DNA of 35,419 bases from Bacteroidales bacterium (GTDB taxonomy: Bacteria > Bacteroidota > Bacteroidia > Bacteroidales > UBA7960), in contig SKYG01000243.1 in NCBI GenBank assembly GCA_007128045.1, positions 1-35,419 of the forward strand. The letters are read 5' to 3'. The notes beneath the pieces are model-generated. The model saw nothing but the letters and a program-made list of their open reading frames with translations, was not told the DNA's origin and made no database searches. Of this stretch, positions 3 to 32,004 are shown in pieces. The translations under genes and the position numbers were made by a program. Each line of letters opens with the position of its first letter. Within the stretch, counting starts at the first letter, position 1.

Positions 3-90
3 TTCAGACTTTCAGACTTTCAGACTTTCAGACCTTCAGACCTTCAGACCTTCAGACTTTCAGACTTTCAGACCTTCAGACCTTCAGACT
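3..90 (-). repeat. Octamer array TTCAGAC(C/T) x11 downstream of the Omp85-like gene
   Basis: 11 perfect units in 8-nt phase; truncated by the window edge. Confidence 0.95.
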
Positions 91-96
91 TTCCGA

Positions 97-1455
97 TTAA
101 AAAAGAAAGTTTAACCCGATATACAACCCGCCGCCGCCATCGCGTTCGTCAAGCGCCTTACCATAATCAACAGATACAATAAAGTTTTGGTTCAGTACGA
201 TCTTCAATCCGGCACCAACAGACGTATGGAGGGCCTCTTCATCGGTTAAGAAATAATCCGTATTGCCGGCCAGCGACTCGCTGGGAATATCAATTTTCTT
301 CAACACCTTACCAGCATCAACAAATGGATTCAGGGCAAGGTATATATCCTGATTCAAGAGAATGGTATTGAAAAACTTCCAGCGCAACTCAATATTTCCA
401 AAAGCAAACGCATCCCCTACCACGCGGTTGCGCACCACCCCCCTGAGGGTTTTTGAGCCACCCAGGCCATCAGTATTCGAAGAGTTAGAGAAGGAATTGA
501 TCATGTATGGCTGCATAAAAAATGGCACCGTGCCGCTGATAGTGCCCTGGTAATTTAACCTGTAGGCCAAAGACAGCCTGTCATCTATCAACGTAAAATA
601 CTGCCGGTGTGTTGCCGATATCTTGTTGTAGCCAAAATCACCGTTACCAAAAAATTTGGGAGCGGCAAACAACACCACCTCACTCCAAATACCTTTCATG
701 GGATTGGGCTCGAAATCGCGGGTATCATACACCAGGCCAAGCTTGATATTGTTGGCCCATCCACCGTCTTTCTCATTCTCACCTATAACGCCCCAGGATA
801 CATATTCATCATAGAGCCCTGGCACGTCAGGGAGTAAATCGGAATCTTTTCCCTTATTTAACCGATCAATATCAACGGAACCAACGCGGTTATGCAATAT
901 ACCAAACCCAGCCACCCACCTGAGTTCACGTCCAGATAACGAACCCTGAAAATCAACCATGGTGCGAAACATACTGCGATCATGCCTGTAAAACATACGC
1001 GTTTTGTAATCACCAGACTCATCATCTTCCCAGGCAGGGTTGTACACCGCATCATAGCCATTGAACCCATAAAAATCAAGTGCTTTTTCAGTAAGGTAGC
1101 TGATGTCGGCTGTAACACGGATATTCGGGATCAGGTATTCGGAATCATAGAAAAACCTATTAATGCCACTGCCTTTGGTGTAGCGCGACACCTCTCCGTA
1201 TAACGAATGCATATACTTGGGATAGGTCGTCCCGTCTCCGAAATAGTACAAATTGATCAGCCCGCCATACTGAAAACCAAGGTCCGAGTTATAGGAAATA
1301 GCCGGCAAAGCACCAAATGTCCATCCCTTCTTGACTACACCATCTGCCGGTTCAGCACCACCATCCTGGGCTATCAGGCTCACAGGTACCATTAAAATAG
1401 ACACCAATAGCATACTGCCTGCCAGATAACAGAAAAATAAATGAATACCTTTCAT
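97..1455 (-). CDS. Outer-membrane beta-barrel protein, Omp85/BamA (D15 surface antigen)-like
   Basis: 452 aa ORF; N-terminal signal peptide; barrel-like C-terminus (GLKIVLNQNFIVSVDYGKALDERDGGGGLYIGLNFLF) ending in Phe; GLVYDTRDFEPNPMKGIW motif typical of Omp85 barrels. Confidence 0.8.
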   Translation of the reverse strand: MKGIHLFFCYLAGSMLLVSILMVPVSLIAQDGGAEPADGVVKKGWTFGALPAISYNSDLGFQYGGLINLYYFGDGTTYPKYMHSLYGEVSRYTKGSGINRFFYDSEYLIPNIRVTADISYLTEKALDFYGFNGYDAVYNPAWEDDESGDYKTRMFYRHDRSMFRTMVDFQGSLSGRELRWVAGFGILHNRVGSVDIDRLNKGKDSDLLPDVPGLYDEYVSWGVIGENEKDGGWANNIKLGLVYDTRDFEPNPMKGIWSEVVLFAAPKFFGNGDFGYNKISATHRQYFTLIDDRLSLAYRLNYQGTISGTVPFFMQPYMINSFSNSSNTDGLGGSKTLRGVVRNRVVGDAFAFGNIELRWKFFNTILLNQDIYLALNPFVDAGKVLKKIDIPSESLAGNTDYFLTDEEALHTSVGAGLKIVLNQNFIVSVDYGKALDERDGGGGLYIGLNFLF

Positions 1456-16841: not shown

Positions 16842-16961
16842 TTCAGACTAATAGACCTTCAGACTTTCAGACTTTCAGACCTTCAGACCTTCAGACTTTC
16901 AGACCTTCAGACCTTCAGACTTTCAGACCTTCAGACCTTCAGACCTTCAGACCTTCAGACC
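16842..16961 (-). repeat. Octamer array TTCAGAC(C/T) x15 (one diverged unit) downstream of the serA stop
   Basis: 120 bp in strict 8-nt phase; unit 2 is AATAGACC; last unit ends 2 nt before the serA TAG. Confidence 0.95.
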
Positions 16962-16963
16962 TT

Positions 16964-17887
16964 CTATTTATTCACCCTAAACGTCTCGTCGCCTTTCTCA
17001 AAAAAGTTTACGATCTGCTGTGCGGCGGCGATACCTGCGTTAATGTTTGCCTCTGATGTTTGCGCACCCATCTTCTTGGCGGTAAATACAAACCTGCCGG
17101 GGTATTTCGATTGAAACTCCCCCAGGCAATCAGGAGCGATGTCAGACAAATATTTGAAGTCACTACGATCTTGCATGATCTTCATCAAGTCATCTTCATG
17201 AATAACTTCCTTTCTTGCAGTGTTTACCAGCATACCTCCCTTGGGAAGCAATGAAAGCAGTTGGTAATTGATCGACTTCTTTGTCTTGTCGTTGGCGGGA
17301 ATATGCAACGACACAAACTTACATGTCTTATACAACTCCTCCACACTATCGAGAGCGATCACACCATCCTTTTTCATATCTTCTTTCGAGACAAATGGAT
17401 CAAACCCATACACATCCATCCCAAAGCCTTTGGCAATCAGGGCAACGTATTTCCCCACATTGCCATAGGCGTGAATTCCGATCTTTTTACCACGTAACTC
17501 AGAACCCGATGTACCGTTGAACCCATTGCGGAGGGCATAAATCATCATTCCGAAGGCCAGTTCTGCAACGGCATTCGAGTTTTGCCCGGGGGTGTTCATG
17601 GCTACCACACCATGGTCGTTACAAGCTGTCAGATCAATATTGTCGTATCCGGCACCAGCACGAACCACGATTTTGAGGTTCGGTGCCGATTCGATCACCT
17701 CCCGGCTGGCCTGATCACTTCTTATTATCATGGCATCTGCCGATGCAGCAACCTCTTTAAGCTCGTCAACAGAGGTATACTTCTCCAGCAAGATCATGGT
17801 GTATCCAGCCTCATCCAGTACATTTTTTATACCATCTACTGCCACCGGCGCAAAGGGCTTCTCAGTAGCAACCAATACTTTTTTCAT
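16964..17887 (-). CDS. serA: D-3-phosphoglycerate dehydrogenase (short, no ACT domain)
   Basis: 2-hydroxyacid dehydrogenase motifs (IVVRAGAGYDNIDL, GKKIGIHAYGNVGKYVA); adjacent to serC. Confidence 0.88.
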   Translation of the reverse strand: MKKVLVATEKPFAPVAVDGIKNVLDEAGYTMILLEKYTSVDELKEVAASADAMIIRSDQASREVIESAPNLKIVVRAGAGYDNIDLTACNDHGVVAMNTPGQNSNAVAELAFGMMIYALRNGFNGTSGSELRGKKIGIHAYGNVGKYVALIAKGFGMDVYGFDPFVSKEDMKKDGVIALDSVEELYKTCKFVSLHIPANDKTKKSINYQLLSLLPKGGMLVNTARKEVIHEDDLMKIMQDRSDFKYLSDIAPDCLGEFQSKYPGRFVFTAKKMGAQTSEANINAGIAAAQQIVNFFEKGDETFRVNK

Positions 17888-21773: not shown

Positions 21774-21889
21774 TTACCAGGTTGTGGTTGATTTTCTGTA
21801 AGTGCGACCCTTGTGGTCGCCCGTTGCCGAATTACCAGGTTGTGGTTGATTTTCTGTAAGTGCGACCCTTGTGGTCGCCCGTTGCCGGA
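21774..21889. repeat. 58-bp tandem duplication with REP-like palindrome GCGACC-cttgt-GGTCGC (plus partial third copy)
   Basis: Copies at 21774-21831 and 21832-21889 nearly identical; third copy begins at 21890 (TTACCAGGTTG). Confidence 0.92.
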
Positions 21890-21904
21890 TTACCAGGTTG
21901 CGGG

Positions 21905-23454: not shown

Positions 23455-23469
23455 CCCTTCAATCTTAAA

Positions 23470-23553
23470 CCTTCAACCTTCGACCTTCGACCTTCAACCT
23501 TCAACCTTCGACCTTCAACCTTCGACCTTCGACCTTCGACCTTCGACCTTCGA
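23470..23553 (-). repeat. Heptamer array CCTTC(G/A)A x12
   Basis: 12 units in 7-nt phase, flanked by a diverged CCTTTTA unit; lies after the peptidase stop. Confidence 0.95.
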
Positions 23554-23587
23554 CCTTTTATATGCCTATCCCATGATAGACACCTTA

Positions 23588-26220: not shown

Positions 26221-27450
26221 ATGAAATACTACCTAATAGCCGGCGAGGCATCTGGCGACCTGCACGCGTCAAACCTGATGGCAGAATTAAAGCATATTGA
26301 TGACTCTGCAGAGTTCAGGTTCTGGGGTGGCGACCGTATGCAGACACAGGGCGGTACAATGGTGAAACACATCAGGGAGCTGGCCTTTATGGGTTTTCTA
26401 GAGGTGCTGATTAACATCCGCACCATCCTGCAAAATATAACCTTATGCAAGAGAGACCTGATCGAATACAGACCCGATGTATTAATACTTATCGATTATC
26501 CTGGATTCAACCTGCGCATGGCTTCCTTTGCCAAAAAGAAAGGGATCAGAACGGTCTATTATATATCCCCCCAAATATGGGCCTGGAACCAGTCGCGCGT
26601 CTATAAGATCAAACGCGACGTGGATAAGATGCTGGTGATCCTTCCCTTTGAAAAGGACTTTTACAAGCGGTTCGGATATGAAGTGGTATATACAGGCCAT
26701 CCACTGCTGGATGCCCTGGCTCAGAATCAGATGCAGAGCCCCGCAGAAGATACCCTACAGCCTCTTCCTCAAGCAGAAATGGGACAGAACACGGAACCGG
26801 TTCAACACAGGAGAACAAACAACCCTAAAAGCCCATCGAGCAAAACCAAAAATAGCTTTCTTGCCACCCACAAACTCCCTGACAAGACCCTGGTAGCCGT
26901 GTTGCCAGGAAGCAGGAAACAGGAAATATCACGCATGCTCAAGGTGATGCTTTCGGTAAGTCAGAGGTTTTCTGACTGCCATTTTGTGGTAGCCGGCTTG
27001 TCAGGTCTTCAAAACATATATAACCAAACCCTGATCAACACCTCTAACGTTTCCATCGTATTCGACCAGACCTACGAACTACTGAAACATACACATGCTG
27101 CCATGGTGGTCTCAGGCACAGCAACACTGGAAACAGCCCTTCTCAGAGTGCCACAGGTAGTCTGTTATAAGTCGAATACCATATCCTATATGATTGCCCG
27201 CAGGGTGGTCAAGGTGCCCTATATCTCACTAGTCAACCTAATCATGGATAAACCTGTGGTGACAGAACTCATACAAGACCAGTGCAATGACAATACCCTG
27301 GCCAAAGAGCTTGACAAACTGATCAATGATAAGGAAAACCGGCAACGCATAGTATCAGACTATGAGATGCTACATCATAAACTCGGTGCTGGCGGTGCCA
27401 GCAAACGAGCAGCAAAAGAAATCTACCGGCTTTCGACCTTCGACCTTTGA
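26221..27450 (+). CDS. lpxB: Lipid-A-disaccharide synthase
   Basis: MKYYLIAGEASGDLHASNLM; FMGFLEVL; YYISPQIWAWNQSR; VVYTGHPLLDAL; VAVLPGSRKQEISRML. Confidence 0.95.
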   Translation: MKYYLIAGEASGDLHASNLMAELKHIDDSAEFRFWGGDRMQTQGGTMVKHIRELAFMGFLEVLINIRTILQNITLCKRDLIEYRPDVLILIDYPGFNLRMASFAKKKGIRTVYYISPQIWAWNQSRVYKIKRDVDKMLVILPFEKDFYKRFGYEVVYTGHPLLDALAQNQMQSPAEDTLQPLPQAEMGQNTEPVQHRRTNNPKSPSSKTKNSFLATHKLPDKTLVAVLPGSRKQEISRMLKVMLSVSQRFSDCHFVVAGLSGLQNIYNQTLINTSNVSIVFDQTYELLKHTHAAMVVSGTATLETALLRVPQVVCYKSNTISYMIARRVVKVPYISLVNLIMDKPVVTELIQDQCNDNTLAKELDKLINDKENRQRIVSDYEMLHHKLGAGGASKRAAKEIYRLSTFDL

Positions 27451-27556
27451 CCTTCAAACCTTCAAACCTTCAAACCTTCAGACCTTCAGACTTTCAGACT
27501 TTCAGACCTTCAAACCTTCAGACTTTCAGACTTTCAGACTTTCAGACCTTCAAACT
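27432..27556 (-). repeat. Mixed heptamer (x3) to octamer (x13) array between convergent lpxB and comEC
   Basis: TTCGACC, TTCGACC, TTTGACC, then TTCAAACC/TTCAGACY units; both genes' stop codons lie inside. Confidence 0.95.
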
Positions 27557-29865
27557 TTCCCCACATACCCCCCCCTCTCACTTACCGCCCAGAATTTTAC
27601 ACCCAGAGACTCACAGGCTTCCTTCCAGCGGAAAACATTTCGGGTACTATTCGAAGCATCAATGATCACCTTCGAAGGTCTGAACACACGCAAATATGTC
27701 TCAGGATCACCTCCGGGGTTGGAGCAAATGATCAGGTAGTCGACCGGCACTTCTATGCAGGTAAAGTCATTGTGCCAGATAGGGGTATGGCTTTCGGTTA
27801 AAAGCACAAAGAGTTTCTCTTGAAAATAGATGTAGTGTCCAGACAGAAAGTTGTCATCCGGATAGTGGTAGTGGATTTCACATCCGACAAGTTTTTTTTT
27901 ATCCGAAATACCAAGTGCTAAAGGTGGACGCACAAAACTGTACGTCAGCAACCAGGGCAGCCCCCTTTCTATATCAGTACCGGAATGAACCTGCGAATGC
28001 TTCAATGGCCTGTTAATGATGGTGATTGCCGGCAAGCCACTGTATAACATCAGACTGGGCCGGGGTACTCCCCTGCTGACACGGTATCCCGTTGTCTGAA
28101 ATCCAGCTCTATCCGGATCGGTTAAAAGTTGTCTGCTGACAAATACGGCTCTTTCTTTGCCCTGAATAAAATCGATTGCAGTAGCCTGGTTCACATGATA
28201 CACCACAAATTGCTTTTGACGATGTAGCTGTATGCTTCTATATGAAAAACATGCTGATATCACCAATGAGGCAACCAAAGCAATCCGTAAGTACATGTAA
28301 CGTTTGACAGCAAAATACAGAAAACCAAATACCAAAAACATAAACATCAGCAATGTGTCTGGCAAACCAATATAGATGTTACCAGAAGTGGAAAAGGGTA
28401 ACCCTTCGATTTGTTTTACGGAAGTATGCAGTGCAAATAACAGCCCATGCAGTAGTTTCCCGGCAATATATCCCAGCCATGGAACCTGGTGCACCAGCAA
28501 GGTAAACAATCCACCGTAAATGATCATCCCCGACAAAGGGATTACGATCAGGTTGGTAAGCAAAAAATAGTTAGGAAACTGATGAAAGTAAAACAACGAC
28601 AAGGGCCCTGTGGCCACCTGAGCAGCAATGGATACGGTGACAATGCCCCACGCCTTATCCAGAATGGCATTCTTCACCTGTACCCGCTTGTATAGCATTG
28701 GCTGTATACTGACAATACTCACCACAGCGAGATACGACAACTGAAACCCAATGCGCGTGATGATATAAGGATCGATGATCAACAAAAGTATAGCTGAGGC
28801 CGCAAGGGTGTTGTAAATGTTCGCACGTCGATAAAAAATTTGCCCGGCAGCCACAAAAGAGAACATCGTTGAAGCACGAAGTACCGAAGGAGAAAAACCT
28901 GTGATGGAGGCGTACAGCCATATCAATACCAGCACCAGAAAGGTCTGGATGTATAACCCCCCGGGTATTCGTCTCAAAAACAACAACATTGTTTTCAGAA
29001 TCAGATAGATAACGCCAACATGTAAGCCTGAAACGCATAATATATGCATAGCACCTGCACCTGCAAACTCACGTTGCAAATCTTCATCCAGGTATTCTCT
29101 GTAACCAAGGAGCAAGGCCGAAATGACAGCAAACTCCCTGTCTGGCAAGCCCTTATCAGAAAACACTCTCAGAGCTTGTTCCCTGAGCTGAAGAGACCAT
29201 CGTACCAATGAACTGCCTTTGTCAGTATCTATGCGATACCAACTTCCAGACTGCCGGTAGGTCGAGTGAAAAACTTGTTGATTGATCAGGAACCGCTTGT
29301 AGTTAAACTGCCCCGGGTTCTGTGGAGGCCTGACCTCCTCGTAGAGGTTTTCAATGATAACGACGTCACCATATCTCAAAGTCCCGGCCAGGCTGTCCTT
29401 CTCAAGATACACGATGATGTTGCCCTTTACACGGATTGGATCAGATTGCCCGATCACTGCCTCTTCCGTAGAATCCAGATTACCCCGACGCAATGACTTA
29501 TAGGGATTAAAACACGACACCTTTCCTAAGAGCTGGTAAGAGTTGGTTTTTTCTGCAACGGGTTCATAGATACGCAAAAATAGTACACCTTCCTGGTCAC
29601 TATAGCGACTGAAGTGATCCTTAACGTATCGATGATCATGGTTTTGGGCCAGGTGATACGCCATAACAAAAAACACTGTCGAGGCCAACAGCCCAAACAC
29701 CCACCGCAGGCCGAAGTGTGATAACCAGTACCTTTTCAACACCAGCCATACAACGACCAGGATAAGATATAGCGCGGCAAAAACTGGAATCGGAATATAG
29801 ACCTGGGCTACCAGATACGTCAATATCCCAAATATGAAAGGCAATACCAACTTTACCAAAGGCAT
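27550..29865 (-). CDS. comEC: ComEC/Rec2 family DNA internalization protein
   Basis: GAGAMHILCVSGLHVGVIYLILKTMLLFL; ASITGFSPSVLRASTMFSFVAAGQIFYRRANIYNTLAASAILLL. Confidence 0.92.
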   Translation of the reverse strand: MPLVKLVLPFIFGILTYLVAQVYIPIPVFAALYLILVVVWLVLKRYWLSHFGLRWVFGLLASTVFFVMAYHLAQNHDHRYVKDHFSRYSDQEGVLFLRIYEPVAEKTNSYQLLGKVSCFNPYKSLRRGNLDSTEEAVIGQSDPIRVKGNIIVYLEKDSLAGTLRYGDVVIIENLYEEVRPPQNPGQFNYKRFLINQQVFHSTYRQSGSWYRIDTDKGSSLVRWSLQLREQALRVFSDKGLPDREFAVISALLLGYREYLDEDLQREFAGAGAMHILCVSGLHVGVIYLILKTMLLFLRRIPGGLYIQTFLVLVLIWLYASITGFSPSVLRASTMFSFVAAGQIFYRRANIYNTLAASAILLLIIDPYIITRIGFQLSYLAVVSIVSIQPMLYKRVQVKNAILDKAWGIVTVSIAAQVATGPLSLFYFHQFPNYFLLTNLIVIPLSGMIIYGGLFTLLVHQVPWLGYIAGKLLHGLLFALHTSVKQIEGLPFSTSGNIYIGLPDTLLMFMFLVFGFLYFAVKRYMYLRIALVASLVISACFSYRSIQLHRQKQFVVYHVNQATAIDFIQGKERAVFVSRQLLTDPDRAGFQTTGYRVSRGVPRPSLMLYSGLPAITIINRPLKHSQVHSGTDIERGLPWLLTYSFVRPPLALGISDKKKLVGCEIHYHYPDDNFLSGHYIYFQEKLFVLLTESHTPIWHNDFTCIEVPVDYLIICSNPGGDPETYLRVFRPSKVIIDASNSTRNVFRWKEACESLGVKFWAVSERGGYVGKV

Positions 29866-29970: not shown

Positions 29971-30019
29971 TATAGACTTTCAGACTTTCAAACAATTCAA
30001 CAACTCAACAATTCAACAT
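29971..30019. repeat. Hybrid octamer array (TATAGACT, TTCAGACT, TTCAAACA-a, TTCAACAA, CTCAACAA, TTCAACAT)
   Basis: Direct reading; one family changes into the other with a single-nt slip. Confidence 0.85.
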
Positions 30020-30022
30020 ACT

Positions 30023-31012
30023 TCACCGTCTTACTCTTCCCCGAAGCAGCAGTCGTTGGCCTGGGACTGGCTGTTCACCCTGTTCCATGGCATTGCGTCG
30101 ATACAGTTGATCCAGGCGAATGCCATATTGCTGTGAGATGATATACATAGTCTCACCAGTTCTGACATCATGATAATCGAATGCGCCGCGACGTCTTTTG
30201 GGTTGGAGATAAATGAACTGGCCGGCAAGGATCTGTTGTCCGTCTTCCAGTTCATTATATCGAATGATCTGCCAGGGCCGCATGTCAAGCTCTCTGGCCA
30301 GCGACTCGGGTGAATCGCCCCGGCGGGCTACTACATATCTGATCCTGTTGTTGGTAGATTCAACACGCGGACCGATGGTTACCGGGGTAAAGTCATAGCT
30401 TCGAAGGCTATCACTATTAACCATGGCATATCCCTCAATGCTGAGCACACTGGGTGGCAGATCTGCCGTCATATCCATGGCCCAACGGTCATATTCAGCC
30501 AAATTGTATTCTTCGATGACCCGAATGAGCTTGGCAGGATAGTTGGGATTGGTCGCATAACCAGCCGTACGTAACCCGTGTGCCCAGGCAGAATAGTCTG
30601 TCGGGCTAAGATCGAACAGAAAGGCATACCGTGGCCTGCTTCTCAAAAATTGCGTGTGATCCAGGAATGACTCTACCGGATTGGCATACTTTCTGAAGCA
30701 CTCATTGAGGGCATCATCATCATATAGGTAGCCACGACCATGCCAGCCATGACATTTGATACCAAAGTGATTGTTGGCTTTGAGGGCCAACTCGCTGTTG
30801 CCAAACCCTGACTCCAGAATGCCTTGCGCCAACTTGATGCTTGCAGGTACACCATAGCGGCGCATCTCCTGCATGGCAATAGTACGGTAGGTCTCAATAT
30901 ATTCCTGAATGGTCATTGGCGACTGAGAAGCAGAAACCTCGGGCAGCAATACCAGGGAAAGAATGGTTGATATAACCCAAATTGACAGTTGCCTTTTTAA
31001 TGCTAATCCCAT
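30023..31012 (-). CDS. Glucosaminidase-domain protein with C-terminal LysM repeats
   Basis: SIKLAQGILESGFGNSELALKANNHFGIKCH; two LysM-like segments (YVVARRGDSPESLARELDMRPWQIIRYNEL; YHDVRTGETMYIISQQYGIRLDQLYRRN); signal peptide from ATG 31012. Confidence 0.92.
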   Translation of the reverse strand: MGLALKRQLSIWVISTILSLVLLPEVSASQSPMTIQEYIETYRTIAMQEMRRYGVPASIKLAQGILESGFGNSELALKANNHFGIKCHGWHGRGYLYDDDALNECFRKYANPVESFLDHTQFLRSRPRYAFLFDLSPTDYSAWAHGLRTAGYATNPNYPAKLIRVIEEYNLAEYDRWAMDMTADLPPSVLSIEGYAMVNSDSLRSYDFTPVTIGPRVESTNNRIRYVVARRGDSPESLARELDMRPWQIIRYNELEDGQQILAGQFIYLQPKRRRGAFDYHDVRTGETMYIISQQYGIRLDQLYRRNAMEQGEQPVPGQRLLLRGRVRR

Positions 31013-31132: not shown

Positions 31133-31202
31133 TTCGACCTTCAACCTTCAACCTTCAACCTTCGACCTTCGACTTTCGACCTTTGACCTTCGACCTATGA
31201 CC
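31133..31202 (-). repeat. Heptamer array TTC(G/A)ACC x10 at the trmH stop
   Basis: 10 units in 7-nt register; the stop codon lies at the boundary of units 9 and 10. Confidence 0.95.
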
Positions 31203-32004
31203 TTAACTGTTTTGCCTTCCTCTGCCTTACCGCTTCAAAAACCAGTACAGCTACTGAGGCGGCAATATTCATAGAGTCGATATGACCTGACATGGGGATT
31301 TTGATTATTCTGGTGGCCTGGTGGCGCCAAGCTTCACCCAGACCTTTGTCTTCAGCCCCAAAAACCAATGCCGTAGCACCCCGCATGTCGACGCCATAGT
31401 AATAGGTATCGGTTTGCAGGGCCGCAGCATAAATGGATATATGCTTGCTGTTCAGCCATTCGACGGCATTCTCTGTGGTACAGGATATGACTGGCAGCGT
31501 AAACAGACAGCCCAGGCTGGCCCTGATCACGTTAGGGTTGTAAATATCTGTTACGGGGTCGGTGAGTATCACGGCATCTACCCCTGCAGCATCGGCGGTA
31601 CGCAGTATGGCACCCAGGTTGCCTGGCTTCTCTACCTTCTCCAATACCAGTATCAGCGGGCGATCCTTCAATTCCAGACCCGACAGACCCCTGACAGGAA
31701 CATGCCCAACAAGAATAACGCCTTCAGCATCTTCGCGGTAGGCAATCTTGTTGTAAACCTGACGTGCGACATAGGTTACATGATTGCACGTCGATGCATC
31801 CATATCAATTGGGTAGGATGGGTCAGCCCTGTACATGTCCAGGCAAACCAGCAAATGCGATGCCTGTATGCCGGCCGCCAGGGCCAGCGACACTTCGCGA
31901 CGGCCTTCTGCAACAAACAATCCGGCCTTTTTCCGAACAGCAGCCTTCTGCTGAAGCTTCAGGATCATCTTTACCAAAGGGTTTTGAAGGCTGGTGATGT
32001 TCAT
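31195..32004 (-). CDS. TrmH/SpoU family RNA 2'-O-methyltransferase
   Basis: VLEKVEKPGNLGAILRTADAAGVDAVIL; ALVFGAEDKGLGEAW; IPMSGHIDSMNIAASVAVLVFEAVRQR. Confidence 0.95.
   Translation of the reverse strand: MNITSLQNPLVKMILKLQQKAAVRKKAGLFVAEGRREVSLALAAGIQASHLLVCLDMYRADPSYPIDMDASTCNHVTYVARQVYNKIAYREDAEGVILVGHVPVRGLSGLELKDRPLILVLEKVEKPGNLGAILRTADAAGVDAVILTDPVTDIYNPNVIRASLGCLFTLPVISCTTENAVEWLNSKHISIYAAALQTDTYYYGVDMRGATALVFGAEDKGLGEAWRHQATRIIKIPMSGHIDSMNIAASVAVLVFEAVRQRKAKQLRS

Follow-up and report, generated by a model that had tools for sequence, protein, structure and literature searches.

A compound heptamer-octamer tandem array between lpxB and comEC in an uncultured Bacteroidales genome, and the orientation of such arrays towards genes

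The array between lpxB and comEC

The window, by which we mean the whole 35,419-nt stretch of DNA that was analysed, belongs to the MAG of an uncultured Bacteroidales bacterium (389 contigs, 84% complete). Within it the genes lpxB and comEC converge on a short tandem array, and the features concerned are as follows.

26221..27450, plus strand: lpxB (Pfam LpxB, 4.5e-88; 409 aa)
27432..27452, plus strand: heptamer part of the array, TTCGACC TTCGACC TTTGACC, coding for STFDL and the lpxB TGA
27448..27450, plus strand: lpxB TGA, within the heptamer TTTGACC
27453..27556, plus strand: octamer part of the array, 12 TTCARACY units and TTCAAACT, containing the comEC stop codon (minus strand)
27550..27552, minus strand: comEC TGA, within the last unit TTCAAACT
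27550..29865, minus strand: comEC (Pfam Competence and DUF4131; 771 aa), inverted with respect to relatives

The original prediction was that the heptamers pass straight into octamers, the TGA of lpxB falling in the third heptamer and that of comEC in the last octamer. A unit-by-unit parse of 27432-27556 bore out the first point, the change of period being seamless, and the coordinates listed above confirm both stop codons. The octamers at 27453-27548 run in the order TTCAAACC three times, TTCAGACC, TTCAGACT twice, TTCAGACC, TTCAAACC, TTCAGACT three times and TTCAGACC, and are followed by TTCAAACT at 27549-27556. TRF gave the array a score of 152 with 89% matches, and a three-unit pattern allowing at most 2 mismatches was found 32 times in the window as against none in 100 dinucleotide shuffles; a chance origin is thus ruled out.

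The gap between the two genes is 99 nt long and consists entirely of array, of which about 20 nt more overlap the end of lpxB. Among 206 arrays this is the only one that holds the stop codons of two genes, and 26 hold or touch one. Stop codons inside such arrays are to be expected, because a period of 7 or 8 passes through all reading frames and the units carry TGA (TTTGACC on the plus strand, GGTTTGAA and GGTCTGAA on the minus strand); reading frames that enter are therefore closed within a few units. All three frames were closed on the G-rich strand of 117 of 192 arrays, compared with 35 of 192 for the C-rich strand. The plus-strand RNA of the lpxB/comEC array is less structured than that of shuffled sequences (z +3.7), for which reason a hairpin terminator was rejected, and Rfam gave no match above gathering score within the window.

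The C-terminus of LpxB reads ...EIYRL-STFDL, and the codons of STFDL lie within the first three heptamers; the array contributes to ComEC only the final valine and the stop. Beyond the conserved ..ASxxAAxxI, the LpxB tail is short and variable in all of the 56 aligned sequences, none of which has STFDL. The proposal that these residues are repeat-encoded is upheld. Since the tail is naturally unconserved, the alignment suggests that the array-coded residues are probably without consequence. ComEC ends where its orthologs usually end, and together with the variable LpxB tail this indicates that the array fills the space up to the last important residues. LpxB also has some 35-40 additional residues around positions 170-210 (QSPAEDTLQPLPQ...SKTKNS), which are missing in the aligned relatives shown and cut the homology matches into two.

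Related arrays across the genome

To place the locus in its genome, arrays were sampled over about 640 kb of the 3.14 Mb. Contigs that had not been selected for their arrays, 441 kb in all, gave 101 arrays of period 7 or 8 (35 heptamer and 66 octamer; periods 9-12 together gave 11), as compared with 5 in 358 kb of relatives. This corresponds to about 23 per 100 kb versus 1.4 in the relatives (20 loci), and the density in 80 other Bacteroidota loci was 2.5. The octamers comprise the families TTCARACN, CAACnnnn, TAAACTnn and AACCnnGT, and the heptamers TTYGACN, TTAAACN, ATTCWCN, CCYRCAA and GCTCANN. Three copies of TTCAGACN in tandem match this genome 188 times; elsewhere in the order they occur in 3 of about 392 other genomes, with 9 matches altogether. 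The arrays are intergenic, 17 of 206 lying within predicted genes, and about a third of the gaps of at least 30 nt bear one (107 of 312, in a sample that includes 20 contigs chosen for arrays). A preference for convergent gaps was rejected, as arrays were present in 12 of 43 convergent, 77 of 217 codirectional and 18 of 52 divergent gaps. The lpxB/comEC array is therefore not a special locus; it is ordinary within its own genome, and a function specific to this locus is not supported. The window holds further arrays:

3..93, plus strand: octamer array of the TTCARACY family at the contig start, separated at its 3' end by 3 nt from the stop of the gene at 97-1455 (minus strand)
16853..16964, plus strand: octamer array of the TTCARACY family, reaching with its 3' end the stop codon of the gene at 16964-17887 (minus strand)
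23456..23557, plus strand: TTCGACC/TTCAACC heptamer array
29974..30018, plus strand: close to the right-hand edge of the inverted segment with comEC, a short run of TTCAGACT (29974-29990) followed by an octamer array of AACAATTC (29991-30018), with the C-rich strand directed towards the stop codon that ends the gene at 30023
31133..31204, plus strand: array of the TTCGACC heptamer family, overlapping the stop codon of the gene at 31195-32004 (minus strand)

An all-against-all comparison traced most of the repeated segments in the window to the arrays themselves. A 58-bp tandem duplication (2.2 copies, 98%) was also seen at 21774-21900, adjoining a 7/21-bp CTCAGTG array. A larger dispersed element (MITE or IS) was rejected as carrier, the flanks of octamer arrays that precede start codons being dissimilar except for a short upstream motif. 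This motif, TTTGACACAnnnnnGCATGATTA(TGGGC), lies 5' of several leader arrays (L167 at 7603 and 8955, L171 at 10959, L173 at 2199, L182 at 763 and L187 at 5492) and is possibly a promoter or regulator site. At two loci (L134, 3016-3085; L157, 6346-6424), heptamer arrays stand head to head (GGTCGAA..TTCGACC) only 3-8 nt apart and could form long hairpins between genes.

The original prediction also held that the heptamer and octamer classes are linked. Gapless, in-register runs of TTYGACN and TTCARACN units were found at other loci as well, for example L138, L141, L146, L154, L155 and L157; we counted 33 mixed 7/8 runs, many of them with only an edge unit. When runs of at least two units each were required, TTYGACN abutted TTCARACN five times and never CAACnnnn, although CAACnnnn runs are more frequent, and TTAAACN preceded TTCARACN within 4 nt four times. 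Octamers intermediate between the 7-mer and the 8-mer are also present (TTTCGACC, TTTAGACC, TTCCGACC, TTTAGACN). Resemblance of the units was rejected as proof by itself: with about ten families per side, a match by one insertion is expected by chance (a rough estimate), and hence only adjacency counts. The recurring mixed runs and the adjacency of 5 versus 0 support the link, on modest numbers.

Position of the arrays relative to gene edges

For this analysis the C-rich strand of each array was written 5' to 3'; the gene calls were our own, and the choice of start does not affect stop-side distances. The results showed that in 119 of 155 arrays (p=7e-12) it is the 3' end, of the two ends, that is closer to the gene, whichever strand the gene is on. 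A gene is found no more than 16 nt from the 3' end of 100 arrays and from the 5' end of 18, where random placement gives 31.9 +- 4.0. The polarity persists in the contigs not chosen for arrays (62 of 83), with one array per intergenic region (75 of 103) and among arrays lacking GGG/CCC (105 of 136). By family, it is clear in the CAACnnnn and TTCARACN octamers and weak in TTYGACN heptamers alone (19 of 30). Where two neighbouring arrays point in opposite directions, they are turned outward, towards their genes, in 29 cases and inward in 1. The distance from array end to ATG peaks at 12-14 nt, and that to an opposite stop codon is mostly 0-8 nt. Thus the units occur genome-wide, keep a fixed polarity to genes, and halt about 12 nt before starts and at stop codons. 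A Rho-site or terminator role was rejected, because C-rich arrays seldom adjoin a co-oriented stop codon.

Other Bacteroidota loci with unrelated units display the same polarity (28 of 39, p=0.009). The relative G006 (loci L222-L261) carries sparse period-7/8 arrays of other units (CATCTTCT, GTGAGAAG, GATTGATGA), which mostly obey it.

A gene-facing polarity had so far been described only in bacteria that are unrelated and carry another repeat. The heptamers GGGAATC and GGGGA(C/T)T of Xanthomonas and Nostoc, which form G-quadruplexes, follow the same rule, which was left unexplained (Rehm et al. 2015, PMC4692102): the G-rich strand starts near the ORF edge and points away, on either ORF strand, just as in the 119 of 155 arrays here. 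Unlike those GGG-run units, the TTCAGACC and TTCGACC arrays have no GGG run and are not quadruplex-capable, and the main units here (GGTCTGAA, GGTCGAA, TTGTTGAA) are without G-runs; the present arrays moreover have both periods, 7 and 8, and a precise 12-14 nt to the ATG. The gene-facing polarity therefore holds without any need of quadruplex-capable units.

TAACTGA direct repeats have been described in Beggiatoaceae, Cyanobacteria and some Bacteroidetes (MacGregor 2015, PMC4679880). Like the arrays reported here, they are heptamers close upstream of start codons that close relatives do not have, and in some Bacteroidetes they are mixed with other heptamers (PMC4679880). In contrast, the units of this genome are unrelated to TAACTGA, which is absent from the array units listed for it; octamers dominate, and the arrays lie equally at stop codons.

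Cyanobacterial STRR are short tandem units in intergenic DNA, of which one genome holds several families; they have been described solely as heptamers, and to our knowledge no gene-facing polarity is known for them. The present arrays share the broad features of this class, namely head-to-tail units of about 7 nt, several dispersed families and intergenic placement. They are not exclusively heptameric, as octamers outnumber heptamers (66 versus 35) and the lpxB/comEC array has both; they therefore work like STRR but fall outside the strict definition of that class. Among the repeats that PMC4692102 cites are heptamers of Calothrix.

The distances to gene edges bear on a possible function. In Bacteroidetes mRNAs an A-rich/bS1 zone at -11 to -14 matters for SD-less initiation, which relies on an A at -12/-13 and on little structure (PMC6847099), and the halt of the arrays about 12 nt before the ATG coincides with the edge of this zone. 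C-rich unstructured leaders might accordingly aid SD-less translation through bS1 contact, while G-rich trailers behind stop codons would serve as stops in any frame or as RNA contacts, the lpxB/comEC array being a comEC trailer. The end of the leader arrays 12-14 nt before the ATG, usually with TTCAGACA as last unit, and the low structure of the lpxB/comEC plus-strand RNA fit such a role, as do the initiation requirements just mentioned, and MacGregor's suggestion that TAACTGA repeats preceding start codons act in a comparable way offers a parallel (PMC4679880). However, about two thirds of the gaps that measure 30 nt or more lack an array, the orthologous genes of relatives have almost none, many unit families are interchangeable, and the lpxB/comEC array lies downstream of both genes. 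We consider this explanation unlikely.

Inversion of comEC and proposed growth of the array

In 16 of 20 loci from relatives in the same family and order, lpxB and comEC are both on the plus strand, and comEC is on the minus strand only in this genome. The relatives' glucosaminidase gene (ortholog of 30023-31012) is on the minus strand in the loci reaching that far. The convergent order of lpxB and comEC is thus derived in this assembly; since the two genes are co-stranded in relatives, it is comEC alone that has been inverted in this genome, with the array at the seam.

This arrangement might have arisen by exchange between inverted arrays flanking comEC, in which case the heptamers would be the former comEC leader, the octamers its trailer, and the 7-to-8 switch the crossover. 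Besides the strand of comEC, which sets this genome apart, arrays lie at or near both of its edges, the last heptamer TTTGACC is one of the usual last units of heptamer leader arrays, and outward-facing arrays flanking a gene constitute inverted repeats. On the right side, however, there is no G-rich remnant, and about 110 nt of ordinary DNA separate comEC from the right-hand arrays. Of the 28 gene pairs adjacent both here and in G006, 1 of 5 with arrays showed a flip versus 0 of 23 without, which is not significant. Further, pyrH is flipped at L150 (3428-6989; frr(-) pyrH(+) tsf(-) rpsB(-)), whereas G004 and G007 keep the same-strand order, and this flip is common to G002 and G008, in which searches found no array units of these families. 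On these two grounds the idea that arrays cause gene flips in general was rejected, the link between array and inversion being a single case, comEC. Misassembly through repeats would also give the same picture, and we judge such an exchange to be quite improbable.

The array or the convergent junction might itself stem from collapsed or mis-joined repeats. The MAG is fragmented, the gene order is unique among the compared relatives, and arrays are enriched at contig ends (12 within 30 nt, 3.2 expected); array lengths are accordingly only as reliable as the assembly. Against an artefact, the order of the units is specific, the window contains no N, the same period classes turn up at numerous further loci, and the ends of both genes agree with those of orthologs. 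We regard it as very unlikely.

The explanation that we favour, and hold to be probable, is that of a compound, microsatellite-like short tandem array, similar to the STRR heptamers of cyanobacteria, grown by slippage and bounded by gene edges, one member of a lineage-specific period-7/8 set that occupies the DNA at the edges of genes. The array would have grown by slippage or unequal exchange, and growth would halt where the translation-initiation zone or a conserved C-terminus would be damaged. We infer that the 7-to-8 step was a one-base insertion in a unit, TTCGACC to TTCAGACC, which was later amplified, possibly via TTTCGACC, TTTAGACC or TTCCGACC; alternatively, two arrays may have been joined when comEC turned round. 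Plain slippage fails to explain the polarity at gene edges and the recurrence of unit families at dozens of loci, so that dispersal or selection is needed too. Simple loss of mismatch repair was rejected as the cause, because MutS and a MutL homolog are encoded.

A general rule for bacterial 7/8-nt arrays might be that the G-rich strand leads away from the neighbouring gene, whichever side the array is on and whichever strand the gene is on, with no need of quadruplexes. Its cause would be a directional, strand-specific addition or insertion of units at gene boundaries, leaving genes between inverted arrays and thereby free to flip in place, as comEC may have done; we put this forward as a doubtful conjecture. 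The lpxB/comEC locus provides a case of an array at the seam of a one-gene inversion. The polarity pattern is here extended to octamers and to another phylum, and it argues against quadruplex formation as the cause of the strand polarity reported in 2015. The distances to the ATG and to opposite stop codons are testable quantities.
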